Assembly (NCBI GenBank): GCA_015711825.1
Contig: JACVJD010000018.1
Coordinates: 1-40,918 of the forward strand
DNA length: 40,918 nucleotides
Reading direction: 5' to 3'
Source: Candidatus Solincola daggyaiensis
GTDB lineage: Bacteria > Actinomycetota > Geothermincolia > Geothermincolales > RBG-13-55-18
The translations under genes and the position numbers were made by a program. Below the pieces are notes generated by a model that was not told the DNA's origin, did not search any database, and worked only from the letters and a program-made list of their open reading frames with translations. Positions 22 to 29,038 of the stretch are shown here, piece by piece. Each line of letters starts with the position of its first letter. The stretch's first letter is position 1.

Positions 22-240
22 GAGACGCCTCCTTTCAGTTAGGAGCCGATACTACCTACCTAATTGTTCGGAGGCGTCCGTTCATTATCATTCCACGCCT
101 CGTTCCATGTCCGAGGCTGTTCGGACCCCTATTTCAAATCATGAGAATGCTTCCCCCTTGCAAAGCCCATCCTTTTCCAACTTAGGGCCGCCAAGAAATC
201 CGGGGCGGCTCAAAACACTCCGCAGCCCTTAGGTCGGCAG
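22..240 (-). promoter_or_regulatory. structured leader of the left-edge gene; SD sequestered in a 9-bp stem
   Basis: This stretch has no convincing gene but is rich in inverted repeats. GACGCCTCC at 24-32 is the exact reverse complement of GGAGGCGTC at 70-78. In a minus-strand transcript this 9-bp stem would bury the GGAGG of the left-edge gene. Two mutually exclusive hairpins lie further out: GCCTCG 98-103 with CGAGGC 112-117, and GTCCGA 109-114 with TCGGAC 121-126. A third, GGCCGCC with GGCGGCT, lies near 187-210. The arrangement suggests translational control, or a structured noncoding RNA upstream of the gene. Confidence 0.4.
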
Positions 241-560
241 CCGGGCGACTACTTGAGGAGGGCGGCCCGAATGCGGCCGAATAGGAGACTCACGTATCGA
301 GCGAAGGGATGGTGGGGAAAAACCTGTAATCGGCTGAACGCAGCGGTAGTGGATACTCCATCTCCTTGACAGGGAAATGGAGGAGTATATTAATTGATGT
401 TTAATATATCTGAAAATAAGAAAAGCGGTTGATGAGACAACCGGAACACCGGGGATATCTGATCCGCAAATACCTTAAGCGCCGGGCAAACCTCGAAAAA
501 GGCAGGGTCGAGTGTGAAAGGGAGACTTAACAGCTTGATTAGGCATACCTGGAGGTAGAG
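241..560 (+). other. noncoding leader upstream of guaB3
   Basis: No reading frame here looks like a protein. Short hairpins can be drawn, for example GGTTG/CAACC near 428-443 and CTCGA/TCGAG near 492-512. The stretch 387-425 is distinctly AT-rich compared with the window. It holds the candidate guaB3 promoter. I matched it against purine, T-box and c-di-GMP riboswitch signatures from memory and none fits. Confidence 0.35.
353..393 (+). promoter_or_regulatory. candidate guaB3 promoter inside an inverted repeat
   Basis: TTGACA at 366-371 is a perfect -35 box. TATTAA at 388-393 (16-bp spacer) is the best -10 box; TATATT at 386-391 would give only 14 bp. An inverted repeat ATACTCC (353-359)/GGAGTAT (382-388), continued by ATCTCC (360-365) against GGAAAT (373-378), puts the -35 box in the loop and part of the -10 box in the right arm. 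A repressor site or an attenuating hairpin would both fit. Confidence 0.4.
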
Positions 561-6129: not shown

Positions 6130-6795
6130 AGACAGCGGGGGTTAAGGATGGGGCGCCTTTTCGCGCCGGCATATATGATTTGACGCGCGGATCCCGCCCT
6201 CGGCGGGTCGAGAAGGGATAGCATCGCTCCTCGTCGGACGTCTGAGCATTGGCCCTGAGTCGCCCAGCTCGGGTAGTACGGACGGTTCACACCCGGTTCC
6301 GTTGGCGGCTTGATCGCAATCGGCTCGTGTTCTTACAGGCGTAAGAGAACATATGGCGCCGACCGCGATTCCGGGATGAGGCCGCGAGACGGGGTTCTTT
6401 TCCGGAAAACCTGGGTGGAACGATGATGGCGACGGGATAGCGGTGTGAAAAAAAGCCGCGAGATATGGCATGGGGTAAAACCTGGTGGTAAACGTTGCGG
6501 CCTGAAAACCCGCATCCTGCGGCGAAGAGCCCTGGATGATTGCGGCGGTGGCCGTTTGTCCGCAGCCGGCTGTACTATACTCTGGTGCGGATCTCTGGCG
6601 CGGATCGGAGATTTTGAGCGGATCAGCGCGGCAGCTCGGTTGGATGACGGGAAGACCTCACGTTTTGAGCGCGAAGAGCCAGCATGAAGTGCCGGCCGAC
6701 CTCGATCCCGAGCGGCGGGAGGCGCTTCCTCCTGCTCATATGACTTGTTGGCGGCTCTGTCCCAAGGATGATTCAAGCCGAAGAGGAAGCGTGAC
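6130..6795 (+). other. 666-bp spacer before the helicase gene
   Basis: No frame here encodes a recognisable protein. It contains a tight hairpin GGCGC/GCGCC near 6152-6167 just after the Nudix stop, a perfect CCCGCC (6193-6198)/GGCGGG (6202-6207) hairpin, and an interrupted stem GTTCT-TAC/GTA-AGAAC at 6329-6350. A TATACT box at 6576-6581 has no good -35 partner. At 6698-6724 lies a near copy of the helicase 5' end (see the repeat entry). A frame at 6536-6799 overlaps the helicase ATG by four bases, but its composition is not protein-like. This may be a decayed gene. Confidence 0.4.
6698..6724 (+). repeat. imperfect partial copy of the pcrA 5' coding sequence
   Basis: Positions 6698-6724 match 6841-6867, inside the helicase gene, at 24 of 27 bases, 143 bp apart and out of frame with each other. 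In its own frame the first copy reads DLDPERREA, close to DLNPEQREA of the helicase. It could be the remnant of a duplicated or recombined start of a UvrD-like gene. Confidence 0.5.
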
Positions 6796-8988: not shown

Positions 8989-9033
8989 GAGAGGGCTTCT
9001 GATATATGTCCGTCGGCCACCGCAGGGCGCGCC

Positions 9034-9768
9034 TTACTTTATCATCCTTATCTCTCTGAGCAGGGACTCTACCGCGCGCTCCCCCGCGGAGCGCATCACC
9101 TCTTCCTGGATCTCGGGGGGCACGTTGAAGTTCTCATCAAGGCTCACGTCACCGGGATGGTAGATCTCCATCCCCGACCCTGATCCCCTGCCCACAATGC
9201 GGTTCTCGCGGTTGTCGAGGAGGAAGGCGCTTATCTGCACGAAGCCGAAGCCGCTGTCCAGCCCCGTGCCGGCGCTGTGGAGCCGCGGGTAACGGAAAAA
9301 GAAATAGTTCACCTCCGGGAGAAAGAGGTATTCCGGGTCGTATTCGCTCTGGATGAGCACGAAGAGCTCGGTGGGCATGTGGGCGGCGCTTTCCGCCACC
9401 CGGTCCACGTCCGCGGGGTCGGGGATATCGTAGAAACCCATGGGATCGAGAAGGTCCTTGACCAACCTGGGGAGCATGCGCTCCGCGGCGGCAAAATATG
9501 CCTCCTTGGCGGTCACGATGAGTCGCGGTTTGTCGAGATCGCTGGTCATATACATCTGGCACCCGATGGCATGGGAGGGCTGAAGCTCACCGTCCCTTTC
9601 CACCAGCGCGCGGTGTTCCCCCAGGGATTCCGGCTCCTGGCCGCTTTCCACGAAGGGCATGATCACCACGCGCATGAGGGGAACCAGTTTGCTGCCGCAA
9701 GAGGTGCAGAACTCCGCCTGGGGGTCTCCGTGCGTCAAACACTTGGGGCAGTAGAGGCGCTTTGCCAC
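9034..9768 (-). CDS. zinc-ribbon protein of unknown function
   Basis: About 244 residues. The first 30 contain a zinc ribbon CPKC-x10-CTSC. The rest is a soluble alpha/beta domain containing LMRVVIMPFVESG and a tyrosine- and phenylalanine-rich stretch FLPEVNYFFFRYPRL, which I do not recognise. I chose the GTG at 9768 because AGGAGAGG precedes it and the zinc ribbon starts immediately after. The frame stays open upstream to 10095, but that part is basic and low-complexity. No signal peptide or membrane segment was seen. The stop is 45 bases from the converging helicase gene. Confidence 0.65.
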   Translation of the reverse strand: MAKRLYCPKCLTHGDPQAEFCTSCGSKLVPLMRVVIMPFVESGQEPESLGEHRALVERDGELQPSHAIGCQMYMTSDLDKPRLIVTAKEAYFAAAERMLPRLVKDLLDPMGFYDIPDPADVDRVAESAAHMPTELFVLIQSEYDPEYLFLPEVNYFFFRYPRLHSAGTGLDSGFGFVQISAFLLDNRENRIVGRGSGSGMEIYHPGDVSLDENFNVPPEIQEEVMRSAGERAVESLLREIRMIK

Positions 9769-10241
9769 CGCTTCTCCTCTCCTCAGCCGTAATGCTCCGG
9801 GACCAAGCAAGCTTTCCGGCAAGGTCGCCGCCGGACCTCCGCCTCTCCGCGATGGCGATGGGCTCCGAGTTCCTCCTTGTAGCGGTTTCCTCTTGCCGGC
9901 ATAAAGCGAATCCGTTGCATTTATCGTCCTTACGCGGGTTTCACTTGAGAAAGCTCCCAGCTCTTCACGGTTCCCATGCCTTGGTAGTCGGCCATGCCCC
10001 TCGCCTTGCGGATCGGTACCGCGCCTCCTCCACCGCTCGACGACCTGGTGGAAACGCTGCCGCCCCTTCTGTGGTGTCAAAAAGCCGCCGAACATGCTTC
10101 TTGCTGTTGGATGCCTTAACGTCGGTATGTTAATATGATGACGTTTTACGGCACAGTGTTGCTTATTACTTAATAATCCGTTACCCCGATGCCGGAGCAG
10201 GGGGCGCGGGAACAGGAAGTGAATGGGAGGGAGGGATTCGC
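9769..10241. other. divergent intergenic region
   Basis: 473 bp between the minus-strand zinc-ribbon gene and the plus-strand carbonic anhydrase. The 3' part (about 10100-10185) is AT-rich. It contains an inverted repeat AACGTC (10118-10123)/GACGTT (10140-10145) with a 16-base spacer, a plausible operator or hairpin. No supported gene and no clear promoter pair was found. Confidence 0.35.
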
Positions 10242-10742
10242 TTGGCCTTGATCCCTTACCAGGATAGCGCTCCGCGCGTGTCGCCGGAGGCGTTCATCGC
10301 GGAGGGGGCTATGCTCATAGGCGACGTGCGCGTGGGCGCCAACTCCAGCATATGGTTCAACGCCGTCCTGCGCGCGGACAGGGGAGAGATCGTGGTGGGC
10401 GAGTTCTCCAGCATCCAGGACTGCTGCGTGCTCCATGGACCCGTGAAGGTGGGGGACCACGTCACCTGCGGTCATGGGGCCATACTGCACGGCGCCACCG
10501 TCGAGGACAACTGCGTGATCGGGATGAACGCCGTGGTCCTGGACGGCGCGGTGGTGGGTCACGGCAGCATCGTGGCCGCGGGAGCGGTGGTCCCCCAGGG
10601 CATGAACATCCCCCCACGCTCCATGGTGGTGGGCATTCCGGCTAAGGTCACCAAGGAGTTCCCGGAGGAGAACGAGGAGAAGCTGCGGGAAATAGCCACG
10701 GCTTATTTCGAGTTCGCCCGTCCGCATATGCCGAAATATTGA
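10242..10742 (+). CDS. gamma-class carbonic anhydrase family protein
   Basis: A 166-residue left-handed beta-helix protein with hexapeptide repeats (for example VRVGANSSIWFNAVLRAD and ATVEDNCVIGMNAVV). The three zinc-binding histidines of the Cam family are in place: CVLHG (about 65) and CGHGAILHG (about 78 and 83). Residues RADRGEIVVGEFSSIQD also match the family. It likely interconverts CO2 and bicarbonate as a trimer in the cytoplasm. It starts with TTG behind GGGAGGGA; no in-frame ATG is nearby. The thiolase-like operon follows after 97 bases, so joint transcription is possible. Confidence 0.88.
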   Translation: MALIPYQDSAPRVSPEAFIAEGAMLIGDVRVGANSSIWFNAVLRADRGEIVVGEFSSIQDCCVLHGPVKVGDHVTCGHGAILHGATVEDNCVIGMNAVVLDGAVVGHGSIVAAGAVVPQGMNIPPRSMVVGIPAKVTKEFPEENEEKLREIATAYFEFARPHMPKY

Positions 10743-10839
10743 GTCCCGGATTTCGCACGAAGGTAGTAAGCGGGGAGGTGATCCTGACAGGTATCCTTGC
10801 TACATTCCAGGGAGGGATCGGTTCAAAAGGAGGTATCTC

Positions 10840-11988
10840 ATGAGGGAAAAGGTAGCCATAGCCGGTATCGGCTACACGGCTTTCACCTCCGTTTCCCCAG
10901 GGAGTTCCTATCGCGAGCTCACCTATGAGGCCGCGGTGAAAGCCTATGAGGAGGCGGGGATCGAGCCGAAGGACGTGGACTCCTTCGTCTGTACATCCGA
11001 GGACATGCTGGAAGGGTACAGTATCTCGGATGAATACTGTAACGATCAGTTGGGAGCGGTGCTCAAGCCCGTGCAGACCATACCCGGCGATTTCCTGCAT
11101 TCGCTCGCGGTGGGCGTCATGCACATCCTGACGGAGAAGTTCGACATCGTGGTTGTGCAGGCCCTGAGCAAGGCGAGTAACATGAAGACCATCCCGGAGA
11201 TGGTCAATTTCGCAATGGACCCGGTGCTCAACCGGCCGCTGGACATAACGGCCTATGCCGTGGCCGGACTGGAGATGAACCGCTTTCTGGAAGAAGGCAA
11301 GGCCACGCGAGAGCAGTGCGCCACCGTGGTGGTGAAGAACAAGGCCAACGCGCTTGCTAACCCGAGCGCGGGCTATGGTGCGCGCATCACCGTAGACCAT
11401 GTTCTCGAATCGGAGCCGGTGGCCGAGCCCGTCCGGTTGCTGGACATCGCCCCATACGCCGACGGCGCGGTGGTGGTCGTACTCTGCGCGGAGAAAATCG
11501 CCGCTAGTCTTACCGACAAACCGGTTTGGATTAACGGCATAGGCTGGTCGTCGGATAGCCCAACTCTGGAGAGCCGTGACTGGACAGACGCGGTGGCGGT
11601 GCGCTTGGCTGGGGACATGGCCTACCGGATGGCAGGCATCCGCTGCCCTGCGAAGGAGATTGACCTTGCCGAGATCAACGACGAGATAAGCTTCAAGGAG
11701 CTGCAGCACCTCGAAGCCCTCAGGCTTTTCGAGCCGGGCCAGGCGGGGAGGGCGACCGAAGACGGCGTGACCTCGCCTCAAGGGAAGCTTCCCGTAAACG
11801 TCTCCGGCGGCGGACTCGGCGTCGGCCATCTTTTCGAGTGTTCCGGGGCGCAAAAGGTCCTGGAACTGGTACTGCAACTACGCGGCGAAGCGGGGGCCAG
11901 GCAGGTGCTGGGCGCCAGGGTCGGCCTGGCCCAGGCTTGGAGAGGGATACCCACCACCTCCGCGGCGGTGGCGATACTGAGCGCGTGA
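10840..11988 (+). CDS. thiolase-fold protein A lacking the nucleophilic Cys
   Basis: A 382-residue thiolase-superfamily protein of the SCP-x/lipid-transfer type, with AIAGIGYTAF at the N terminus and NVSGGGLGVGH near the C terminus. In true thiolases the nucleophile lies in NKVCGSG. Here the aligned stretch reads TIPGDFLHSLAVG, with no cysteine. The histidine of the GHP motif is kept (GVGHLFECSG), but the C-terminal Cys motif is replaced by VGLAQAWRG. It is first of four tightly packed genes with a paralogue and two DUF35 proteins, behind AAAGGAGGT. Relatives such as Ltp2 work with DUF35 partners as retro-aldolases; thiolytic activity is not expected. The substrate is unknown. Confidence 0.82.
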   Translation: MREKVAIAGIGYTAFTSVSPGSSYRELTYEAAVKAYEEAGIEPKDVDSFVCTSEDMLEGYSISDEYCNDQLGAVLKPVQTIPGDFLHSLAVGVMHILTEKFDIVVVQALSKASNMKTIPEMVNFAMDPVLNRPLDITAYAVAGLEMNRFLEEGKATREQCATVVVKNKANALANPSAGYGARITVDHVLESEPVAEPVRLLDIAPYADGAVVVVLCAEKIAASLTDKPVWINGIGWSSDSPTLESRDWTDAVAVRLAGDMAYRMAGIRCPAKEIDLAEINDEISFKELQHLEALRLFEPGQAGRATEDGVTSPQGKLPVNVSGGGLGVGHLFECSGAQKVLELVLQLRGEAGARQVLGARVGLAQAWRGIPTTSAAVAILSA

Positions 11989-12008
11989 GGCGGGGGAGGT
12001 GATATGGC

Positions 12009-13172
12009 ATGGCATACCAGAGAGTAGCGATAGTTGGCGCCGGCATCACCAAGTTCGTGCGCCGTGCACATGAGACCGGCAAGGAACTGGCCGCGCAGGC
12101 GGCAAAAATGGCCCTGGATTCCTGCGGCATGACCATGAAGGACATCGAAAGCGTCAGCCTGGGCACCGCGCCTGACGCCTTCGACGGCGTACACATGAAG
12201 GGCGAGTATCTGAGCGACGGCTCGGGCGGCTGGAGGAAACCCTATATGCGCCAGTTCGTGGGCGGAGGTACGGGCGTCTTCGCACCCATCCACGGCTGGT
12301 ACCACGTAGCCTCGGGGATGTTCGACACCTGCCTGGTGGTGTGCTCGGAGAAGATGAGCTCGTGCCATCCCCATCCCCAAGGGGCCTTCAAGACCATCTT
12401 CGACCATACCACCGAGCAGGCGCTCAACCCCACCCTCATCTGGATCTTCGCCCTGGAGATGAACCGCTACATGTCCACCTACGGCATCACCAAGGAGGAG
12501 ATCGCCTTGGTCTCGGTCAAGAACAAGAAGAACGCCATGGATCACCCGGCGGCACAACTACCCATGGAGATAACCGTGGAAGACGTGTTGAATTCCGAGA
12601 CCCTGGCCTGGCCGGTGAACCGCTTGGATATCAGTCCCGCCTCCGACGGGGCGGCTGCCATCGTGCTCGCTTCCGAACACACTGCGAAGCGCATCACCGA
12701 CAAGCCGGTTTGGATCGACGGCGTGGGCTGGAACCTGGATACCGCCTACTGGGCCACCAGGGACCTCTACTACCCTCGCTATGTTGAGAAGGCGGCAAGG
12801 ATGGCCTACGAGATGGCCGGGATCACCGAGCCCAAGCGGGAGATTGAGATAGCCGAGCCCTACGACCCCTTCGACTACAAGGAGCTTCACCACATGGAGG
12901 GTCTTCTCCTCGCGGATCGGGGCAAGGCGGTGGAGATGCTCCTGGACGGCAAGACCCAGAGGGACGGCGACCGGCCCATGTGCCCGTCGGGCGGCGCGCT
13001 TGGGGTCGGAAACCCGATCGCGGCCACCGGGCTGATGAAGGTCATCGAGATCTTCCTGCAGTTGCGTGGCGAGGCAGGAAAGCGCCAGGTCCCCGGGAAC
13101 CCGCGCTGCGGCCTGGCCCAGGCGTGGGGCGACCTCATGCAGGTGGGCACCGTGGTGGTATTGCGGAGATAA
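12009..13172 (+). CDS. thiolase-fold protein B lacking the nucleophilic Cys
   Basis: A 387-residue paralogue of the preceding gene, sharing NRLDISPASDGAAAIVL-type and RITDKPVWIDGVGW-type blocks with it. The nucleophile position reads GTGVFAPIHGWYHV, again without cysteine, and the usual GHP histidine is an asparagine (GVGNPIAATG). A cysteine remains in PRCGLAQAWGD, near the usual C-terminal Cys. The start at 12009 is eight bases after GGAGGT; an ATG at 12004 is out of frame. Only 20 bases separate it from protein A. The two may form a heterodimer in which each supplies part of one active site. Confidence 0.82.
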   Translation: MAYQRVAIVGAGITKFVRRAHETGKELAAQAAKMALDSCGMTMKDIESVSLGTAPDAFDGVHMKGEYLSDGSGGWRKPYMRQFVGGGTGVFAPIHGWYHVASGMFDTCLVVCSEKMSSCHPHPQGAFKTIFDHTTEQALNPTLIWIFALEMNRYMSTYGITKEEIALVSVKNKKNAMDHPAAQLPMEITVEDVLNSETLAWPVNRLDISPASDGAAAIVLASEHTAKRITDKPVWIDGVGWNLDTAYWATRDLYYPRYVEKAARMAYEMAGITEPKREIEIAEPYDPFDYKELHHMEGLLLADRGKAVEMLLDGKTQRDGDRPMCPSGGALGVGNPIAATGLMKVIEIFLQLRGEAGKRQVPGNPRCGLAQAWGDLMQVGTVVVLRR

Positions 13173-19114: not shown

Positions 19115-21634
19115 ATGGCCGTCACGGCAAGGATGCGTAAAACGGCGCCCGCCATGGTGGCGGCCTTTTTCGTCTTCCTCTCCGCTTTTGCCGTCTTGGC
19201 TACGCCGTCCATAGGCGCTGGCGGCGCCTTGGCGGCGGCGGGAGGGCCGCCTCCCCGCCTTATGGTGGCCTGGGAGGAAGGCAGGGCGGGGCTGGAGAGT
19301 CCGACTTCCACCAACGCCCTGACTGAGGGGGCCAGGAAGGCCCTCCAGGCAGTGCCGGGGCTTTACGAGAGCCTGCGGAGAGCCGCGTGGCCGACACCCG
19401 ACCTCCAGGCGCTGACGTTGGGGGAGGGGGCTTCGCTTGAAGAGGCGAAACGCGCGTTGTCCTCCCTGCCGGGGGTGCGCTTCGTGGAGGAGGACACCGT
19501 GGTAAAGGTGGAATCTTATTCCAGCGACCCCTATTACCAGAAGCAGTGGTACCTTGCCCGCATCGGAGCGCCCGTCGCCTGGGAGGGCGGGATCACGGGC
19601 GGCGAGGTCCTGGTGGCGGTGGTGGACTCCGGCGTCGACGCTTCCCACCCCGATCTCAGGGGACGCGTGGAGCGAGGCTACGATTTCGTGGACCACGACG
19701 AGGACGCCTCTGACGCATACGGCCACGGCACCCATGTGGCCGGGATAATAGCGGCCGCCGGCGACAACGGCGAGGGCGTAGCGGGCCTGGCCTGGAGGGC
19801 GCGCATTCTGCCGGTGCGGGTGCTGGACGGGAGCGGGTACGGCTATTACTCGGACATCATCGCGGGCATACGCTACGCTGCCGATCGCGGAGCCCGCATA
19901 ATAAACCTCAGCCTCGGCGGCGGGGCCCAGTCGCAGGCCCTGCAGGAGGCGGTGGACTATGCGCGTTCCAAGGGATGCCTGCTGGTGGCGGCGGCCGGGA
20001 ACGGCGGCCTCGACTCCCTCAGCTACCCCGCCGCCTGCGAGGGAGTGGTGGGAGTGGGAGCGGTGGATACGGAGAGCCGCCCGGCTTCCTTTTCCAACCG
20101 CGGCGATGCGTTGGACGTGGTCGCCCCGGGCGTGGCTATTTACTCTACCTACCCCGGGAACCGCTATGCTTCCCTGAGCGGAACCTCCATGGCCGCGCCG
20201 CAGGTGAGCGGAGCACTTGCTCTCCTTATGTCGCGCGAGCCCGGCCTCGGGGTAGCGGAAGCGGAATCGCGCCTTACCGGCAGCGCGCGAGATCTCTGCG
20301 ATGTCGGCTGGGATGCCTACAGCGGCTGGGGGATGCTGAGGGTGGACGGGCTTCTCGGCCTGGACGTGAGGAACAGCGACGGATCCGACGGCGGGCTCTT
20401 TTTCGCCGAGGGCTGCACCGCCCCGGGGTTCGATACCTACCTGCTGCTGGAAAACCCCGGGAGCGAGCCCGAGGAAGCCACCCTTGATCTCTATGGAAAC
20501 GCTGGCCCCGTCTCCTCCAGCGGGGTGGTGGTCCCGGCTCGCTCTCGCCTGACCCTGCACCTCAACCGCATGGCGCCGGCTGGGGACGTCTCGGCCAGGC
20601 TTTCGACCAGCAAAGGATCACCCTTGAACGCGCAGCGCTCCATGTATTTCGATTATCACGGCATTAAGGACGGACATACCACCGGCGCCGCGGACGTTTC
20701 CAGGCAATGGTATTTCGCCGAGGGCTACACGGGTGAGGGATTCGATACCTACATACTGGTTCTCAATCCCCAGAAGGAGACCGCGCACCTGACCCTGGAG
20801 CTTATGACCCCCGAGGGGAACTCCACGCACGGATTCGAGGTCTCTCCCGGGACGCGCCGCACCATCAGGCTCAACGATCTGCTGCCGGGTGCGGAGATCG
20901 CCGCGGTGGTGACCTCCGACTTGCCGGTGGTGGCGGAGCGCGCGGTGTATTTCGATATGGGCGAGAGAAGCGGCGGTTCGGTGGCCATGGGAGCGCAAGC
21001 TGCCGCGGAGGAATGGTATTTCGCGGAGGGTTACACGGGAGGTGAGTTCGACACCTGGCTTCTCCTGGCCAACCCCTCTCCATCGCCCGTGACGGCCTTT
21101 GCCTCCTTACAGCGCGGTGACGGCGTGATCCTGGAGAGGGAAGTACCCCTGCAGCCGCGCTCCCGTGCCACCGTGCATATAGACGAGATCCCCGGCCTGG
21201 AGAACGCCGAGGTATCCACGCGGGTGAGAGCCGACTATCCGGGTGTGGTGGCGGAAAGGGCCATGTATTTCTCCTATCATGGCTCTTTCGGAACGGCGGG
21301 GGGCGGGCACGCGGCCGTGGGCGCCGTGGCGCCTTCCTCCCACTGGCTGATACCGGAGGGATACACGGGCACCGGTTTCGAGAGCTGGATCCTGGTGTCC
21401 AACCTGGAGGACAAAACGGTGTCGGTGCGCCTGGTGGTGATGGGAGAGAGTGGGGCGGAAACAACGCGCGAGTTCTCCCTCCCTCCCCACGCGCGCCTCT
21501 CGGTGCTGGAGAACGACCTCCTGGCGGGTGAGGGCGTCAGCGCGGAGGTGACCGCCCTCGGCGGTGAGCGCCTGGTGGTGGAGGGCGCGTTCTACTTCCG
21601 CTACGGCGAGGGCATAGATGGCGGAAGCTCCTGA
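19115..21634 (+). CDS. secreted subtilisin-like serine protease with four C-terminal WYFAEG repeats
   Basis: 839 residues. A signal peptide (basic MAVTARMRKT, then a hydrophobic stretch to about 30 and an Ala-rich cleavage region near 35-43) is followed by an I9-like propeptide (about 50-133). The S8 catalytic domain carries Asp 171 (VVDSGVD), His 204 (GHGTHVAG), the oxyanion Asn 296 (AAAGNGG) and Ser 358 (SGTSMAAP). From about residue 428 to the end are four ~105-residue repeats starting LFFAEG, WYFAEG, WYFAEG and HWLIPEG, shared with two other exported proteins here. No sortase motif or C-terminal membrane helix is seen, so the repeats may hold it to the cell surface. It starts behind AAAGGAGG. 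Confidence 0.93.
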   Translation: MAVTARMRKTAPAMVAAFFVFLSAFAVLATPSIGAGGALAAAGGPPPRLMVAWEEGRAGLESPTSTNALTEGARKALQAVPGLYESLRRAAWPTPDLQALTLGEGASLEEAKRALSSLPGVRFVEEDTVVKVESYSSDPYYQKQWYLARIGAPVAWEGGITGGEVLVAVVDSGVDASHPDLRGRVERGYDFVDHDEDASDAYGHGTHVAGIIAAAGDNGEGVAGLAWRARILPVRVLDGSGYGYYSDIIAGIRYAADRGARIINLSLGGGAQSQALQEAVDYARSKGCLLVAAAGNGGLDSLSYPAACEGVVGVGAVDTESRPASFSNRGDALDVVAPGVAIYSTYPGNRYASLSGTSMAAPQVSGALALLMSREPGLGVAEAESRLTGSARDLCDVGWDAYSGWGMLRVDGLLGLDVRNSDGSDGGLFFAEGCTAPGFDTYLLLENPGSEPEEATLDLYGNAGPVSSSGVVVPARSRLTLHLNRMAPAGDVSARLSTSKGSPLNAQRSMYFDYHGIKDGHTTGAADVSRQWYFAEGYTGEGFDTYILVLNPQKETAHLTLELMTPEGNSTHGFEVSPGTRRTIRLNDLLPGAEIAAVVTSDLPVVAERAVYFDMGERSGGSVAMGAQAAAEEWYFAEGYTGGEFDTWLLLANPSPSPVTAFASLQRGDGVILEREVPLQPRSRATVHIDEIPGLENAEVSTRVRADYPGVVAERAMYFSYHGSFGTAGGGHAAVGAVAPSSHWLIPEGYTGTGFESWILVSNLEDKTVSVRLVVMGESGAETTREFSLPPHARLSVLENDLLAGEGVSAEVTALGGERLVVEGAFYFRYGEGIDGGSS
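20396..21631 (+). repeat. four ~105-residue WYFAEG-type repeats (protease)
   Basis: Repeat units start at 20396, 20708, 21014 and 21344. Each opens with a (W/L)(Y/F)FAEG-x-T-x-x-GFDTY(L/I)L motif and ends with AERAMYF-type residues. The unit spacing is 312, 306 and 330 bases. Confidence 0.85.
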
Positions 21635-21698
21635 CCGTAACCGGGGCAAACGCCGTTTGGCCGCAAACAGGTGCGCACTGAGATCGCTTACCGTCCAG

Positions 21699-21807
21699 TC
21701 CTAAACCGCCCAGGAAACAGGCAATCGATAAGAAGAAAGCCTTGGCCTTTGACGACGAGATGCTCACACCCCCTCCTTAACCGCCCAGGCGAAAGGCGAT
21801 TGACAAG
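21699..21807 (+). repeat. two imperfect 34-bp direct repeats upstream of the TetR gene
   Basis: Copies at 21699-21732 and 21774-21807 match at 27 of 34 positions with a 75-bp period. The core is AACCGCCCAGG. The second copy contains the TTGACA -35 box of the TetR promoter; the first has TCGATA there. They could be regulator sites or a duplicated promoter upstream element. Confidence 0.55.
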
Positions 21808-21828
21808 GGGGAGGCGTGGCGATATAAT
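21800..21828 (+). promoter_or_regulatory. consensus sigma-70-type promoter of the TetR gene
   Basis: TTGACA (21800-21805) and TATAAT (21823-21828) are both perfect, separated by exactly 17 bases. The expected transcription start, near 21835, lies inside the operator palindrome. Confidence 0.8.
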
Positions 21829-21857
21829 ATCGACCGGATGGTCGGTCGAGATTATAT
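21822..21857 (+). promoter_or_regulatory. palindromic operator over the TetR promoter
   Basis: The arms 21823-21836 (TATAATATCGACCG) and 21843-21856 match as inverted repeats at 13 of 14 positions around a six-base centre, and the flanking A/T at 21822/21857 also pair. A second, shorter palindrome CGACC-GGAT-GGTCG (21831-21844) overlaps it off-centre. The left arm includes the -10 box, so a bound dimer or dimer pair would block transcription. Autorepression by the TetR protein just downstream is the natural reading. Confidence 0.75.
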
Positions 21858-21873
21858 AAAGGCGCGTACATCC

Positions 21874-22485
21874 ATGCCCAAGCGCGAGAACCCCGTCAAA
21901 GAGCTGCGAGAGAAACAGATCAAGGAAGCGGCCCTGCGCCTTTTCTCCGAGCGTGGCTTTCACCACACCACCATAACCCAGATCGCGGAGGCGGCCGAGC
22001 TTGGAAAGGGCACCATATATTGGTACTGGAAATCCAAGGAAGACCTGGCGTACTCGCTGGTATCAGACATGTTGGGCGATTTCCTGGCCCTCATCGAGGA
22101 GGCCAGGGACGCCGAGGGGGCGGTAGCGGATCGTTTCAAGGATCTGGTGGCCAAGGTGTCGGAATTGTATTACCGCGAGACCGACTACCTGCGCCTGCTG
22201 TGGAAGTTCAGGGTGGACCGCGGCTATATCTTCAGCGAGGGGTACAGGGAAAAGGTGGCAAGCTACTACCTGCGCATGCGCAAGGCGCTGGAGAGCCTCA
22301 TCGAGGAGGGGATGCGCAAGGGCGAGTTCAGGGAAGTGGACCCGGTGAGGATGGCCTTCATCCTCTTGGGGGTGGCGGAGGGCCTGGAGTTGGAATGGCT
22401 GGAGAACGAGGACGAGTTCTCGATGCGCGAGGCCCTGAACGAGATCATGGGCCTGGCCATCGCGGGCATCGCGAAACAGGCATAA
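21874..22485 (+). CDS. TetR/AcrR family transcriptional regulator
   Basis: 203 residues. The N-terminal helix-turn-helix is clear (AALRLFSERGFHHTTITQIAEAAELGKGTIYWYWKSK, about residues 18-52). The C-terminal helical ligand-binding domain is not diagnostic of a ligand. I chose the ATG at 21874 because the in-frame ATG at 21838 lies in the operator centre, at about the transcription start. It probably represses itself and the reductase gene 56 bases downstream. A fatty-acid or acyl-CoA ligand would suit the neighbourhood but is only a guess. Confidence 0.88.
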   Translation: MPKRENPVKELREKQIKEAALRLFSERGFHHTTITQIAEAAELGKGTIYWYWKSKEDLAYSLVSDMLGDFLALIEEARDAEGAVADRFKDLVAKVSELYYRETDYLRLLWKFRVDRGYIFSEGYREKVASYYLRMRKALESLIEEGMRKGEFREVDPVRMAFILLGVAEGLELEWLENEDEFSMREALNEIMGLAIAGIAKQA

Positions 22486-22541
22486 GTGGACATCCGTATG
22501 AAGGGGGCGTCGAGCTCCCGCGCGAGGAAAGGAGTTGAGGG

Positions 22542-23660
22542 ATGAGGGTGATAGCGCTGGGAGGAGCGGGAATGATGGGCCGCTTCGCGGTCAGGGACCT
22601 GGCATCCAAGGAGAGCGTGGAAGACCTGCTCATAGCGGACTACAACCTCGAGGAGGCGGAGGCCCTGGCCAGGGAGCTGGGCCCCAAATGCCGTGCCTGT
22701 AAGGTGGACGCCAACGACCATGCCCAGATGGTGGAGACGGTGCGCGGTTTCGACGTGGCCATGGGCACCATCGGCCCCTTTTACAAGTACGAGAAGAAGG
22801 TGGCCGGCGCCTGCATCGAGGCGGGCGTCAATTACGTGAGCATCTGCGACGACTACGACGCCGCGGCCGACTTCATGGCCCTGGACGAGGCGGCGAAAAA
22901 AGCGGGGGTGACCGCCATCACCGGCGTGGGGTGGACCCCGGGTATCACCAACGTTTTCGCGCGCCTGGGGGCGGACCAGCTCGACGAGGTGGACGAGATC
23001 GCCACCTCCTGGGCCTGCGATCCCGCGGACACCGCCGGGAAGGCGGTGACCCTGCATTACCTGCACGCGGTCACGGGCATGATCCCCTCCTACATCGACG
23101 GCAGGATGCAGTACATCAAGGCCGGGTCGGGCCTGGAGCGCATCACCTTCCCGCCCACGGTGGGAGCGGTGGACTGCTTCCATGCCGGGCACCCGGAGCC
23201 GGTGACCATACCGCGCTACATCGATTGCCGCTCCGTGACCCTCAAGGGCGGCCTCACGGACGTTTTCCTGGTGCAGCTCTGCAACCTGATCGTGGCCGCC
23301 AAGCTTACCGATAGCGAGCGCAAGAAGGACATCGTGGGCGGGTTTTTCAACAAGCTGTTGCCGTACCTGGAGAACATCGGCAAGCCGCCCGAGACCTGCT
23401 CCGCCTGCCGCACCGACATCACGGGAAAAAAGAACGGAAAGTGGGTGCATCTGGCCTACGGGGCCGCCGCGCATATGGACATGCTCACCTGCCTTCCCAC
23501 CTCCATCGCGGTGCAGATGGTGGGGGAGGGCAGGGTGGTCGAGAAGGGAGCGCTGGCTCCCGAGGCCTGCCTGCCCCCGCAGGAGTTCCTCAAACGCCTT
23601 GCGGAGGGCGGGGTGCGCCTCTACGAGGGCGACGACATGACCAGGCCCCTCACGTTATAG
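22542..23660 (+). CDS. saccharopine dehydrogenase family protein
   Basis: 372 residues with an N-terminal Rossmann fold: VIALGGAGMMGRFAVRDLA, then an acidic residue in LLIADYN suggesting NAD(H) preference. GVGWTPGITNVFAR and the central DFMALDEAAKKAGVTAI region are typical of the family, which includes lysine-pathway enzymes and many uncharacterised oxidoreductases. The ATG lies behind AAAGGAGTTGAGG. It sits directly after the TetR gene with no promoter visible between, so it is probably the regulator's target. The substrate is unknown. Confidence 0.82.
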   Translation: MRVIALGGAGMMGRFAVRDLASKESVEDLLIADYNLEEAEALARELGPKCRACKVDANDHAQMVETVRGFDVAMGTIGPFYKYEKKVAGACIEAGVNYVSICDDYDAAADFMALDEAAKKAGVTAITGVGWTPGITNVFARLGADQLDEVDEIATSWACDPADTAGKAVTLHYLHAVTGMIPSYIDGRMQYIKAGSGLERITFPPTVGAVDCFHAGHPEPVTIPRYIDCRSVTLKGGLTDVFLVQLCNLIVAAKLTDSERKKDIVGGFFNKLLPYLENIGKPPETCSACRTDITGKKNGKWVHLAYGAAAHMDMLTCLPTSIAVQMVGEGRVVEKGALAPEACLPPQEFLKRLAEGGVRLYEGDDMTRPLTL

Positions 23661-23672
23661 GCGTGACATGAC

Positions 23673-26600
23673 CTAGAAACCGGTTACGTCCGAACCTCCC
23701 TGACATGGGCCGAAGGAGCCCGAATAGTCGAAGTACATGGCCCTCTCGGCGAGCAAGGTGGGGGAGCCGTCGACGGAGGTAACGCGCATGGAGAACTCCA
23801 TGGACTCGCGCTCCAGGACCTGGTTGGCGAAGACGGTGGAGCGGGAAAGGGGCTCAAGCTCAAGGATCTGCGAAATCACCTCGCCGGTGGAGAGCACGTA
23901 ATCTATACGCGCCGCCGATGTCTCGGCGGAGGTGTTCTGGATGAGCAGCCAGGTCTCGAAGCGCGAGCCGGGGTTCCCCGTGTACCCTTCGGCGAAAAAG
24001 AACTGCGAGGCCGGCTGGGCGGCGCCGAGGCAGTTGTGCCCGCCCGTCCAAGCGCCGCGGTAGTCGAAATACATCGCCCGTTCCACCACCACCGGCAGGT
24101 CCGCATGCACGTGCGCGCTTACCATCTGCCCTTCGCCCACGTTGGCGTCGGCGCTCACCGTGGTGCGGCTGCGGGGGGCGGCGGTGTATTCAAATGGCCG
24201 GGTGCTCCCGTCGGGGAACATGTAGGTGACCGTGAAAGCCGCTGCCCTGTCGTTGCGGTTGGCCACCAGGATCCACTCGTCGAAGGGGCTGCCCTCCCAG
24301 CCCGTGTAGCCTTCCGCCAGGTACCAGTCGTTGGCGGCCGCCGTGGCCGCCACCCCGTTGTGCCCTCCCGGCCAGCGGTTGTTGTAGCTGAAATACATGG
24401 CCCTTTCCGCCACCAGGGGCTTGTCGGAGCGCAGCAGCGCGCTTACCTCCCTTCCCTCGCCCACCGCGGCGTCTACGCTGATGCTGAGGCGGCGCCGCGC
24501 GGGCACCAGGTACTGCAGGCGCTTTTCCTCGCCCGATGGGAAGAGATAGGCCGCCTCCACCACGGCGTCTTCCCCGCCGGGGTTGAGCAGAAGCAGCCAT
24601 TCCTCGAAGGGGCTGCCTGGCGTCCCCGTGAAGCCCTCCGCGAAGAAGAGCTCCAGGCTGGGCGAGGTGATCCCCATCACGTCGTCACCGCCCGTTATGC
24701 CTTGGTGCAGGTAGTACATGGAGCGTTCGCACACGAATCCCTCCTCGCCCTGCAGGATGGCCGCCACGCCGCTTTCCCCGGGCATCTCGGCGTTCACGTA
24801 AACGGTGCGGCGGCTGTGTGCGGGCAGGAAATGCTCGAACTCCTTTTGCTCTCCCCCCTCGGTGAGGTAGGTTACGGTAACCGCCATGTCGTCGTCGCCC
24901 ATGTTGCTCATGAGGATATATTCGTCAAAACCGGGTTGCGTGCTGCCCTCCGCGAAATACCATGTCTTCGGCAGGTCCGCGGAGGAGGCGTTGGCGCAGC
25001 TCGCCTCGAGCGGCGGCAGGCCCTGTGCCTCGGCCACGGCTACGTTGCGGACGGTGGCGCCCAGGGGCAGGTGGTTCCCTACCTGCACCGTGAAGCTGAC
25101 CACGGCCTCCGCGCCGGGAGCTATAACCCCGGGCGCCTCTCCGGGGGAGTTCACCGCCACCCCCCCCGCCAGGGGGGTGGTCCCGCTCACGTCTTCCACC
25201 GGCCCGCCGTTGAGGGTGGTGGTGAGGGGCACGTAGCCGGTGTACGCGGGCACCGCATCCGTGATCCTGGCTCCGGTGGCCGCCGCGTTGCCGCGGTTGC
25301 GCAAACGCAGGGTGTAGGTGATCACCGAGCCCCTGGTCACCTCCCCGGTCGGGCTGGGATATTTTTCTAACTCCAGGGCCGGCGTGGAGGCGGCCACCTT
25401 GTTCACCGTTTGCGCGGTGACGCCGGCGGCCTGTTCGTCGCAGGTCGCGGTCGCCTGGTTGGTTATCTCCGCGCCGCCGGGAGTGGCGTTCGCAACCCTG
25501 ACCTTGAAGACGGCGGTGGCGGACTTTCCGGGGGATATGACTCCCGGGGGATCGCCGGGGGAGTTCACGCTCATCCCGCTCTGCAGGGGGCTGTTGCCGC
25601 CGCTATCGGGCACGGGAGCGCCGTTCAGGGTGGTGGAGCCCGCGACGTAGGAAGTATGTTCCGGAACGGCGTCGGTGAGGAGCGTACCGGTGGCGGTTCC
25701 GCTGCCGTGGTTGGATAGCGTAAGGGTGTAGGTGATCTCCGCGCCCGTCTTCACCTCGCCCGAAGGCTGGGCGGCCTTGGCGAGGGAGAGTACGGGGTCG
25801 AGGGAGGACATGTAGCCGATGGCGTAGTTGGTGGAGGGGGTGTTGGTCCTTCCCGAAAACCACATCTTGCAGCGGGAGGGCTCGCCATGGCCGTCGAATG
25901 CGCTCGCGCTGTAGAGCACGCTGGGGGTGTAGGTGCGGACGTCCCTCCAGGCCACCCCGTCGCTTACGTGGATCAGGGGGTTGTCGGGGTCGCGGGTCCA
26001 GGTGATGCCGTCGGGCGAGGTGGCGTGACCTATGCCCTGGTTGGCCCCGCCCGCGGGTCCGCTGCCGGAATACCACAGGTGCCAAACCCCCTCGAGATCG
26101 GGTATCACCGCGCCGAAGGTGGCGTAATCGCTGTCCCAGTCACCGGGGTTCCCGTGGTCGAAGACGGGGGCGTCCTCGTAGGGCGGCTGGTGGTAGCGTA
26201 TCCAGTGGGCGCCGTCGCTGCTGTAGGCCAGCCCTATCACCTCCTGGCCCCCGGTGGTGGCGTCGTAGTACATGGCGAAGGAGTAATCGAAGGGACGGGA
26301 CCCGGTATTGGAGGCGGAGGGGTTGTGGTGCACCGATACCGGCCCGTAGGTGCCCCGCTTCCAGTCCGTGCCGGAGATGCCGGAGATAAGGGGATAGGTG
26401 GAGTCCTGGGTGACGGCCTGGTCGTTCACCCAGTTGACTCCGTCCACGGAGTCGGCCGTGCGCATATTGCCGATGGTGTAGTCCATGACCCCGTTCCAGT
26501 ACCATATCTTGTAATAATAGGGGCCGGCTCCGAAACCGCCCGGGATATAGAGGACCTGGGCATGATATCCGCCGGAAACGATGCCCTGCATCTCTTCCGG

Positions 26601-26987
26601 AGCCGACCAGTTGACGCCGTCGTCGGAGTAGGACACCGCCTGGTTGTGGGTCGCCCCCGCGGCCGTCTCGTGTCCCCCATACCACATCTTGTAATGATAT
26701 GAAGCCCCATGCCCGGAGAACCTGTCGGGGTCGTAGAGGACGCATGGGTAGTAGGCGCGGTGATCCGCGGGGTCGTAAACGGGGTTTGCGGCATGCTCGT
26801 GCCAGGAGATATCGGCCGCGGCGGCCTTGAACCCCACCCCGGCGGCCAGGGCGATGGCCAGGGCGGCCATGATGCAGAAGGATGAGGCGGCAAAGCCGAC
26901 GCGGCCTTTAGCGGGAAACCCCCTTGCCGTCTTTCCCTGTATACGGCTCGAAAACACCTTAGGCCACGCGTTCCCGGTCATCGCCAC
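23673..26987 (-). CDS. exported beta-propeller/DUF11 protein with four WYFAEG repeats
   Basis: About 1104 residues. A long positively charged N terminus is followed by a hydrophobic signal segment (FCIMAALAIALAAGVGF). Next comes a region (about 26850-25810) with five spaced motifs of the YKMWYGG / WHLWYSG / CKMWFSG type, like a five-bladed GH43/GH32-type propeller. Two DUF11 domains (about 25800-24990, each with EITYTLTLSNHG-like and ITDAVP elements) lead to four C-terminal repeats. The start is uncertain: I take the GTG at 26987 behind AAGGGGG. A GTG at 27077 and an ATG at 26981 are alternatives. It is probably a surface protein binding or cutting polysaccharide. The stop is 12 bases from the converging reductase gene. 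Confidence 0.8.
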   Translation of the reverse strand: MAMTGNAWPKVFSSRIQGKTARGFPAKGRVGFAASSFCIMAALAIALAAGVGFKAAAADISWHEHAANPVYDPADHRAYYPCVLYDPDRFSGHGASYHYKMWYGGHETAAGATHNQAVSYSDDGVNWSAPEEMQGIVSGGYHAQVLYIPGGFGAGPYYYKIWYWNGVMDYTIGNMRTADSVDGVNWVNDQAVTQDSTYPLISGISGTDWKRGTYGPVSVHHNPSASNTGSRPFDYSFAMYYDATTGGQEVIGLAYSSDGAHWIRYHQPPYEDAPVFDHGNPGDWDSDYATFGAVIPDLEGVWHLWYSGSGPAGGANQGIGHATSPDGITWTRDPDNPLIHVSDGVAWRDVRTYTPSVLYSASAFDGHGEPSRCKMWFSGRTNTPSTNYAIGYMSSLDPVLSLAKAAQPSGEVKTGAEITYTLTLSNHGSGTATGTLLTDAVPEHTSYVAGSTTLNGAPVPDSGGNSPLQSGMSVNSPGDPPGVISPGKSATAVFKVRVANATPGGAEITNQATATCDEQAAGVTAQTVNKVAASTPALELEKYPSPTGEVTRGSVITYTLRLRNRGNAAATGARITDAVPAYTGYVPLTTTLNGGPVEDVSGTTPLAGGVAVNSPGEAPGVIAPGAEAVVSFTVQVGNHLPLGATVRNVAVAEAQGLPPLEASCANASSADLPKTWYFAEGSTQPGFDEYILMSNMGDDDMAVTVTYLTEGGEQKEFEHFLPAHSRRTVYVNAEMPGESGVAAILQGEEGFVCERSMYYLHQGITGGDDVMGITSPSLELFFAEGFTGTPGSPFEEWLLLLNPGGEDAVVEAAYLFPSGEEKRLQYLVPARRRLSISVDAAVGEGREVSALLRSDKPLVAERAMYFSYNNRWPGGHNGVAATAAANDWYLAEGYTGWEGSPFDEWILVANRNDRAAAFTVTYMFPDGSTRPFEYTAAPRSRTTVSADANVGEGQMVSAHVHADLPVVVERAMYFDYRGAWTGGHNCLGAAQPASQFFFAEGYTGNPGSRFETWLLIQNTSAETSAARIDYVLSTGEVISQILELEPLSRSTVFANQVLERESMEFSMRVTSVDGSPTLLAERAMYFDYSGSFGPCQGGSDVTGF
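23676..24962 (-). repeat. four WYFAEG-type repeats (propeller/DUF11 protein)
   Basis: Units begin, on the minus strand, at 24962 (WYFAEGSTQPGFDEYIL), 24650 (LFFAEGFTGTPGSPF), 24326 (WYLAEGYTGWEGSPF) and 24002 (FFFAEGYTGNPGSRF). Three of them have a GSPF/GSRF insertion lacking in the other two proteins. Confidence 0.85.
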
Positions 26988-27592
26988 GGGCAACCCCCTT
27001 CTTCTTTTCCCGCAGGGTCGCTGCGGGGGGCGGCTTCCATGCCGCGAACCGTCTTTCCGCACATGTTTCCCACTCACCCTTTGCTTCCCTGTCCGAAAAG
27101 GGCGCCGCTCTTTGCGGCCGTCAACCTTTACGGCCGGCCGTCACCATGACTCTTCGTTGCGAAACTTCGTTACGAAACGCGGGTTTTCCTCCCGTGGCGA
27201 GCACTAGAGGAAGTCGCCGTCGCCAAGCCACATGCTTTTTACCGGCCCCCTATCTCGCCTCCTTCCGGCTTTTCTCCAAACCTCCTGGTAAAGAGACACA
27301 AACATATAAATATATATCGAGAAAAAAGGGAAACCAGGGCATTCGGTTCCTTAAACGGCTTCCAAGGGGAGAGAAGCGGTCAAATAGGATGGAAAACGGC
27401 GTGGGGAAGCAGGGACGGCGGCGCCACTCAAGGTCGCCGCGCCGGTCTATTGGACGGTCGATCATATAGGATCGATATAGGATCGCTCTTGGCGGCGAAA
27501 TGCGGGCGGGGACGCTGAACGAGGGGTTTTCCTGCTATCATAGTCATAGCTTCCGTAAGGCAGTGGGCAAGGAAGGCGCGGAGGAGGCGGAG
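26988..27592. other. divergent intergenic region between two exported-protein genes
   Basis: About 600 bp. The part to 27077 may code for an extended N terminus of the minus-strand gene. A strongly AT-rich island at 27300-27330 (ATATAAATATATAT-type) is the likely promoter area for the minus gene. For the plus gene, TTGGAC (27450-27455) with GATATA (27474-27479) at 18 bp is a weak promoter candidate. A tandem repeat overlaps it. Confidence 0.4.
27464..27485 (+). repeat. tandem 11-bp direct repeat over a candidate promoter
   Basis: ATATAGGATCG occurs twice without interruption, at 27464-27474 and 27475-27485. The 11-bp period is about one helical turn, so both copies face the same side of the DNA, as expected for cooperative regulator binding. 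The start codon of the exported repeat protein is 107 bases downstream. Confidence 0.5.
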
Positions 27593-29038
27593 ATGAGGGT
27601 TTTTCGCCCGGCGACCGGAGTGTTGGCGATAATCGTCATCACGGTCGCGTTTTTTCCCGGCTTTGCGGGCCGACCCGTGGTGGCCGCTTCCCCGAGGTCG
27701 CACGGGTTTGAAAGCGCCGCTGCGGAGCTTCCCACGCGATGGTATTTCGCCGAGGGCACCACGCGCGAGGGGTTCTTCGAGTATATATCCTTACAGAACC
27801 CGGGAACCGAGGCGGTGAAGGTCCGTATCACATACATGACCAACGACGGCCCCATCGGGCCCTTCGAGCACCTCGTCCCTCCCGTATCCCGCGGCACCGT
27901 TTTCGTGAACGGGTACCTTGAACCGGGCCTCGACGTGTCCGTGGCGGTGGAGGGCGACAAGGGCGTGGTGGCCGAACGCCCCATGTATTTCGTCTATAAG
28001 GGCGTCTGGGAGGGGGGACACGTCTCCAAGGGGGTCAATGAGCCCCAACGCACCTGGTATTTCGCGGAGGGGACCACCAGGCCCGGGTTCGATGAGTGGC
28101 TGTGCCTACAAAACCCCCAGGAAGCGGAACAGCGGGTAACGGTGACCTTTTATACCCCCGGGTACGTGGACTCCAAGACCTATCGCATAGCGGCGCGCCA
28201 TCGCTTCACCCTGGACATCAACCGAGAGGTGGCGGAACTGTGGCCCGACCATCCTCACCAGGACGTGAGCCTGAAGGTGGAGGCCGAGGAGGGCGTTATC
28301 GCCGAGCGTCCCATGTACTTCGATTACAAGGGAAGCTGGCGGGGGGGAGACATCGTCATGGGCCAGACCGAGCCGGGAAGGGAATGGTACCTGGCCGAGG
28401 GCTACTGCGAATGGAATTTCGAGACCTGGCTTTGTTTCCTGAATCCCAACCTGGAGGAAGCGCATATCACCTTGAACTACCGCCGCGGAGACGGGGCAGC
28501 CCTGCCCTCCCAAAGGTTCGAGGTCCCGGGTTACTCCCGCTTCACCCTTTACGTGAACGAGGTGGTGGGCAAGGGAGAGTTCTCCTTCCACGTGACCTCC
28601 GATCAGGACATCGTGGTGGAGAGGCCCATGTATTTCAATTACCGCTATACATGGACGGGCGGCCATGACAACACCGCCGTCTCCCGCGCCGCCCCGGAAT
28701 GGTACCTGGCGGAGGGGTCCACCCGAAGGGGCATGGAGACCTATTTGTGCGTGCTGAATCCTCTGGACGTGGGGCAGAGGGTGATCGTGGAGTATCTCAT
28801 GGAGGAGGGAGGATACATGGAGGTGGAGTTCCCCGTCCCGCCCCGTTCCCGCTATACGCGCAACGTCAACGCCGACCTGGGTGACGGGCATGACGTCTCC
28901 TTCCGCGTCAAGGCCCTCAAGGACACCGACCCGGTGGAGCCGGGCGAGGTGGTGGTGGAGCGCCCCATGTATTTCCTTTACGGTGGGACCATAGCGGGGG
29001 GGCACGTCACCTCCGGCTACCCCGAGGTCTCGCCCTGA
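27593..29038 (+). CDS. exported protein built only of four WYFAEG repeats
   Basis: 481 residues. A signal peptide (MRVFRPATGVLAIIVITVAFF, cleavage probably near PVVAAS) is followed by four tandem repeats filling the rest: WYFAEGTTREGFFEYI, WYFAEGTTRPGFDEWL, WYLAEGYCEWNFETWL and WYLAEGSTRRGMETYL. Each ends with a (V/I)(A/V)ERPMYFxYxGxWxGG element. No catalytic domain is present, so the repeat itself may be a structural or binding unit of the cell surface. The ATG at 27593 follows GGAGGAGG; the frame opens upstream at 27500, but that part is not signal-like. No anchor motif is seen. Confidence 0.85.
   Translation: MRVFRPATGVLAIIVITVAFFPGFAGRPVVAASPRSHGFESAAAELPTRWYFAEGTTREGFFEYISLQNPGTEAVKVRITYMTNDGPIGPFEHLVPPVSRGTVFVNGYLEPGLDVSVAVEGDKGVVAERPMYFVYKGVWEGGHVSKGVNEPQRTWYFAEGTTRPGFDEWLCLQNPQEAEQRVTVTFYTPGYVDSKTYRIAARHRFTLDINREVAELWPDHPHQDVSLKVEAEEGVIAERPMYFDYKGSWRGGDIVMGQTEPGREWYLAEGYCEWNFETWLCFLNPNLEEAHITLNYRRGDGAALPSQRFEVPGYSRFTLYVNEVVGKGEFSFHVTSDQDIVVERPMYFNYRYTWTGGHDNTAVSRAAPEWYLAEGSTRRGMETYLCVLNPLDVGQRVIVEYLMEEGGYMEVEFPVPPRSRYTRNVNADLGDGHDVSFRVKALKDTDPVEPGEVVVERPMYFLYGGTIAGGHVTSGYPEVSP
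27740..29035 (+). repeat. four WYFAEG-type repeats (repeat-only protein)
   Basis: Units begin at 27740, 28055, 28385 and 28700, spaced by 315, 330 and 315 bases. These have PMYF where the other two proteins mostly have AMYF, so this set forms its own subgroup. Confidence 0.85.

Follow-up and report, generated by a model that had tools for sequence, protein, structure and literature searches.

Four-unit arrays of ASRAH domains on exported proteins of Candidatus Geothermincolia, a probable single-chain ring

The window studied here, the whole 40,918-nucleotide contig JACVJD010000018.1 of the Candidatus Solincola daggyaiensis assembly GCA_015711825.1, encodes three exported proteins (a subtilisin, a DUF11 protein, and a repeat-only protein) that each carry four copies of a unit of about 105 residues, 12 units in all. 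We find that the unit is almost certainly an ASRAH domain, i.e., a member of the superfamily of the Anabaena sensory rhodopsin transducer (Pfam DUF5719/ASRT), and that the four copies very probably make up a fixed set under structural constraint. Sequence and a structure model of circularly permuted relatives argue strongly that four such units would close into one ring, equivalent to the ASRT/TM1070 tetramer but made of a single chain, and by homology to these relatives the plain tetrads of the window are also likely, with good confidence, to be closed. An earlier note on this DNA had described the copies but missed this main feature, that the four are a fixed closed set and not an open-ended repeat. 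What is new here is the geometry (the fixed number of four, the end-to-end closure, and the two permutation sites); the family itself was already known.

Family of the repeat unit

The earlier count of four copies in each of three exported proteins was fully recovered, since a profile built from two of the window proteins recovers each of the four units in the remaining one (E values of 2e-21 to 2e-36) and such leave-one-protein-out profiles matched no unit in shuffled control proteins. The 12 units have a mean pairwise identity of 35%, with little difference between pairs from one protein and pairs from two. All three proteins have a hydrophobic signal-like segment near the N-terminus, and in all three the array reaches the last 1 to 5 residues, with unit 4 ending at most 5 residues before the stop codon. 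No LPxTG-type C-terminal signal was found in any of the three, in agreement with the absence of a sortase motif reported before, and no lipobox was seen in their N-terminal sequences.

The earlier note knew of no described function for the repeat, but the domain had already been described. DUF5719 (PF18986) matches the subtilisin with 82.6 bits and the repeat-only protein with 42.1 bits against a cut-off of 26.2; the DUF11 protein has no whole-protein match, and one stretch of it reaches 27.6 bits in a separate test. Pfam matches to ASRT stay below threshold in the subtilisin and the repeat-only protein, and ASRT (PF07100) is above the cut-off in a relative, L103 (40.8 versus 25 bits). Searched against the PDB, the 12-unit profile matches TM1070 (1nc7, E = 6.3e-5) and the Anabaena sensory rhodopsin transducer (2ii7, E = 0.009). 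AlphaFold predicts unit 1 of the repeat-only protein as an eight-stranded sandwich with a predicted local distance difference test score (pLDDT) of 91.8 and a predicted template modeling score (pTM) of 0.82, and this model matches 1nc7 with a TM score of up to 0.85 (E = 1.3e-6) and ASRT with 0.63 to 0.70, no PDB structure other than these two matching it at E <= 0.001. With DUF5719 above its cut-off and TM1070 and ASRT found both by profile and by structure, a novel domain was rejected as a candidate. The profile search and unit structure prediction that had been proposed as checks thus led to a known family, and the surface role suggested with them stays a candidate one.

The ASRAH superfamily was defined by De Souza, Iyer, and Aravind in 2009 by a strand-1 tryptophan and a near-absolute strand-2 asparagine (PMC2739507). 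Over 352 units from 88 plain tetrads (period of 105 residues, linkers mostly of 1 to 4 residues), the start of strand 1 is W in 79%, with mostly F or Y in the remainder, and the end of strand 2 is N in 99%. The same paper predicts sugar binding in a cleft that strand 2 lines and to which the subunit interface contributes; in TM1070 this cleft is lined by His and Cys, and other families are said to use different residues. Cys stands at the TM1070 pocket Cys position in 60% of the units, and the pocket His position holds Glu or Asp in 78%. ASRT and TM1070 share the fold and are both tetrameric, but they are intracellular single-domain homotetramers, whereas here four units are exported in one chain; because of this multi-unit, exported form and the change at the His position, the proteins fall outside the intracellular ASRT-like family. 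They also differ from the actinobacterial two-ASRAH lipoproteins in having four units and, in the three window proteins, no lipobox. The DUF5719 profile was probably built on that two-domain lipoprotein, since it has 319 positions; two of the three window proteins exceed its cut-off, but here the units form four-unit C-terminal blocks on many enzymes, without a lipobox.

Secreted ASRAH forms are known to occur as dyads or tetrads, and the tetrads have already been suggested to form tetramer-like structures (PMC2739507). Our proteins resemble these forms in fold, in the strand-1 Trp and strand-2 Asn, in export, in the tandem arrangement, and in fusion to N-acetylmuramoyl-L-alanine amidases. However, tetrads were reported there only in amidases, mainly of Chloroflexi, whereas in this single actinobacterial class dozens of proteins per genome carry them, and the circular permutation at two sites and the insertion into host domains described below are absent from the main text of that paper.

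Copy number and closure of the array

Among the complete open reading frames (ORFs) of the source genome, a refined profile finds four units in 22, three in two, two in two, and one in seven, i.e., exactly four in 22 of the 26 with at least two units. Complete ORFs of relatives hold four units in 62 cases and an apparent five in ten, and most others have fewer or are frameshifted fragments; eight of the ten "five"-unit ORFs consist of a half-unit, three whole units, and a half-unit, which sums to four. Among the complete ORFs in which three or two units can be recognised are L027:2633-5161, L137:5155-6618, L094:4336-6606, and L052:1230-2321. Two further source-genome loci, L035:1478-3301 (C44) and L048:1386-1964 (C120), appear to be disrupted tetrad genes, one interrupted by stop codons within a unit and the other with a 5' part resembling a transposase N-terminus.

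It could be argued that four is merely inherited, one ancestral tetrad having been copied onto many proteins so that the number carries no structural meaning, and 257 of the 352 units are indeed nearest to the unit at the same position of another protein, largely in orthologues. We consider this very unlikely. In six proteins the four units are mutually closest and form a single-protein clade of exactly four, which indicates that the tetrad was rebuilt or homogenised at this number and that four has been re-established, not only inherited; moreover, the total stays at four in the forms permuted at either of the two cut sites, as it does in a distant phage protein. Position-specific units (all first units alike) were tried as a candidate and were not supported, the mean identity between proteins being about 0.40 at the same or different positions. 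In plain tetrads, the most conserved residues are about as well preserved in units 1 and 4 as in units 2 and 3, as expected if a ring has no free ends.

The first site of closure is strand beta1. In five source-genome proteins (a CAP protein, two SpoIID proteins, an NlpC/P60+SLH protein, and one without a Pfam match), the first unit lacks this strand and the last 12 to 15 residues are a beta1 strand, e.g., STHWYFAEGYTGS-stop; L119 has the same arrangement with a longer tail after the beta1 motif. None of 105 plain arrays has the extra C-terminal strand (Fisher p = 4e-10 versus beta1-lacking arrays). The DNA pattern of beta1 followed by a stop codon is found in all 31 of 31 genomes of the class, at 94 sites, with 0 matches for a reversed-pattern control. 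Forty of these regions were fetched for ORF analysis, and all 44 complete ORFs ending in beta1 hold exactly four units, the first of them without beta1. This first unit starts at profile position 12 to 15 in 41 of the 44; the starts at 3, 6, and 9 in the other three look like matches over-extended into host sequence. Tested examples of these tetrads are fused to Amidase_3, NlpC/P60+SLH, SpoIID, and FG-GAP propellers. On one contig (G030 C9, L141-L142), the Amidase_3, NlpC/P60+SLH, and SpoIID genes are consecutive, each with a strand-exchanged tetrad, and comparable regions occur in G056, G149, and G133 (L145-L148, L165-L166; Pfam tested on G030 only), which looks like a conserved peptidoglycan-remodelling cluster.

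The second site lies between strands 5 and 6. Eight complete proteins have a C-terminal half-unit, three whole units, and an N-terminal half-unit, cut at 63|64, and a ninth, in C119 of the source genome, has the same order and is incomplete at the contig end. Six of the eight blocks interrupt a glycoside-hydrolase-like domain (barrel): with the block taken out of four of these hosts, their profile matches PslG in one unbroken alignment over the junction (28-306, E = 5e-4). Searched alone without its block, a single host of this permuted kind matched no solved structure and no Pfam family. The remaining two of the eight are exported tandem paralogues with a helix-like N-terminal sequence and an internal block each (L123:5338-8724 and 8643-12119), and their host is unrelated to the glycoside-hydrolase-like ones.

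Both permuted arrangements need the ends of the array to meet, and the two ends of a block set in a host loop must lie together; the ring conclusion is based on this and on the confidence of the following model. The 427-residue block of L103:4731-6011, folded alone from eight sequences and with no host domain, gave a pTM of 0.84 and a pLDDT of 81.7, with the half-units about as confident as the whole units. VIA-align places 1nc7 first for this model (Z = 13.7, model range 41..363), the range giving first and last residues only, with no geometry drawn from it. The beta7-beta8 hairpin (Y.G.W.GGH) has low confidence in each unit of the ring model (residues 26-36, 130-139, 235-244, and 350-355 of model m9b1a41b5da37), whereas the model of a single unit places it with high confidence; it may be exchanged by neighbouring units or act as a loop for the ligand. 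That one chain end supplies the closing strand to the other, and that circular permutation is tolerated, recalls the "velcro" of beta-propellers, but this is an analogy only, since each "blade" here is a whole eight-stranded sandwich and the sequences are unrelated.

Exported beta-sandwiches in tandem often serve as stalks, and linkers of 1 to 4 residues would permit a rod, so the four units could instead form a linear spacer, strung out one after another, that holds the catalytic domain away from the cell. This is a highly improbable reading: stalk repeats vary in number but these units are held at four, strand exchange and half-unit permutation leave incomplete domains unless the ends meet, and the pTM of the 427-residue array indicates a defined arrangement.

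The window proteins and the distribution of the unit

The coordinates of the three proteins and their units are given in Table 1. For the repeat-only protein, the internal ATG at 27593, not position 27500, is the probable start, judging from GGAGGAGG just upstream and the hydrophobic segment directly after this ATG. The label "propeller/DUF11" given earlier to the second protein holds for its two DUF11 domains; its N-terminal part, propeller-like by eye, has no Pfam match beyond them.

Table 1. Exported proteins of the window and their ASRAH units (positions in the 40,918-nucleotide window)
Feature	Position	Strand	Basis and remarks
Exported subtilisin (S8), C-terminal tetrad	19115..21634	+	Pfam PF00082 E=1.5e-64, aa 163-406; N-terminal hydrophobic segment; Shine-Dalgarno sequence AAAGGAGG
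Subtilisin unit 1	20387..20698	+	unit profile
Subtilisin unit 2	20699..21004	+	unit profile
Subtilisin unit 3	21005..21334	+	unit profile
Subtilisin unit 4	21335..21631	+	unit profile
Exported DUF11 protein, two DUF11 domains, C-terminal tetrad	23673..27077	-	PF01345 E=2.3e-16, two stretches
DUF11 protein unit 1	24660..24971	-	unit profile
DUF11 protein unit 2	24336..24659	-	unit profile
DUF11 protein unit 3	24012..24335	-	unit profile
DUF11 protein unit 4	23676..24011	-	unit profile
Repeat-only exported protein, signal segment and one tetrad (probable start)	27593..29038	+	ORF 27500-29038
Repeat-only protein unit 1	27731..28045	+	unit profile; AlphaFold 8-stranded beta sandwich, pLDDT 91.8
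Repeat-only protein unit 2	28046..28375	+	unit profile
Repeat-only protein unit 3	28376..28690	+	unit profile
Repeat-only protein unit 4	28691..29035	+	unit profile

The earlier figure of twelve copies in 10 kb was right as a count, but the genes do not form a special cluster, as the source genome (3.0 Mb, 190 contigs) contains 142 matches to the unit. When 45 genes are placed at random, a group of three within 8.4 kb turns up in about 26% of the placements; three tetrad genes at this spacing are unremarkable among about 45, and the window was rejected as a special locus. All 13 genomes of the same class among 149 sampled in the phylum have at least 32 matches each, and all others have 0 to 2. 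The relatives with units, namely Candidatus Solincola, Candidatus Geothermincola, and further metagenome-assembled genomes of Actinomycetota, belong to the class Candidatus Geothermincolia, actinobacteria of hot springs and the subsurface. Mobile spread was rejected as a candidate: neither the 50,697 phage records nor the 72,556 plasmid records searched gave a match, and IMG/VR gave one contig only. This phage contig (IMGVR_UViG_3300044692_000080) encodes an exported repeat-only protein with exactly four units, about 35% identical to the query unit (L181:4863-7864), just upstream of an Amidase_2 endolysin-like gene.

Partner domains and putative function

The earlier note had suggested tabulating the domains fused to the repeat. 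In the source genome, the partners are subtilisins, SpoIID, Amidase_3, YkuD, NlpC/P60+SLH, polysaccharide deacetylase, M28 peptidase, CAP, 5'-nucleotidase, DUF362, FG-GAP/PQQ/PD40 propellers, TIG, Big_7, and DUF11, a list rich in peptidoglycan enzymes (amidase, SpoIID, NlpC/P60, YkuD). LysM is absent from this genome and SLH occurs once, in the NlpC/P60 ring protein.

Retention on the surface by a general non-covalent module is the most economical reading, and we consider it probable, because peptidoglycan enzymes are among the partners, LysM is absent and SLH nearly so, and sugar binding is predicted for related domains (PMC2739507). Of the surface attachment or assembly proposed earlier for the repeat, attachment thus remains the best functional guess, as an inferred role. 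Each four-unit block would be one functional module, a covalent pseudo-tetramer of ASRAH beta-sandwiches, placed at the C-terminus of an exported protein or built into a host-domain loop, and would hold the protein non-covalently on its own cell surface via cell-wall or other surface glycans. That the ligand is a glycan, of the wall or of the surface, is as likely as not in our judgement; the binding sites may be four equivalent ones near the unit-unit interfaces, one per unit or per interface. In being common to many exported and peptidoglycan-acting proteins, the module would resemble LysM, SLH, and SH3b cell-wall modules, but its fold is unrelated to theirs and its binding is only predicted.

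The main rival keeps the closed ring but makes it a docking hub: through protein-protein contacts it would link exported proteins into a lattice or complex at the surface, and it would not bind glycans. ASRT itself works via protein and DNA contacts (PMC8660804), and in one genome dozens of different exported proteins carry the unit. A conserved gene pair, with a one-unit exported protein encoded beside a four-unit protein, could also be taken in favour of docking. On the other hand, peptidoglycan enzymes are recurrent as partners, the contexts published for related domains suggest sugars (PMC2739507), and the docking partner is still hypothetical, which makes a docking hub unlikely overall. 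In the gene pair, the one-unit protein (about 170 to 250 residues, transmembrane-like N-terminus) lies directly upstream of the four-unit protein (about 1230 to 1300 residues) and could form a homotetramer or meet the ring. The pair is found in C46 of the source genome (L021:4970-5722 and 5679-9524, with Ig-like domains in the four-unit copy) and in L102, L106, L110, L117, L135, and L139.

Taken as a whole, a closed four-ring module that retains exported proteins on surface glycans seems to us somewhat probable, and several points weigh against it. A few complete ORFs hold one, two, or three units. The geometry of the ring is deduced from the sequences and from the pTM and pLDDT of the model and not from measured coordinates, and the ring-level fold covers the half+3+half block of a relative, the model from the window being that of a single unit. 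The genome has three sortases, so covalent anchoring exists too, and many partners (subtilisins, FG-GAP/PQQ propellers, DUF11, TIG) are not peptidoglycan acting. To our knowledge, there is no measured ligand for any extracellular ASRAH domain. Finally, the pocket His of TM1070 is mostly replaced by Glu or Asp, a change that agrees with the remark on different residues in other families (PMC2739507).

In conclusion, a repeat of a "domain of unknown function" would take on a definite structure, that of a covalent four-ring for which natural circular permutants exist, and the ASRT superfamily, whose general role is disputed, would gain an abundant extracellular branch beside peptidoglycan enzymes. 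The ring, tolerating both insertion and permutation, may also be a natural scaffold for protein engineering. For the uncultivated class it is a candidate surface-attachment system, and it is possible, at a little short of even likelihood, that a single-chain four-ring closed by strand exchange, cuttable at two loops and pluggable into other domains, serves Candidatus Geothermincolia as a general surface-anchoring device that replaces LysM and SLH on dozens of exported proteins per genome.

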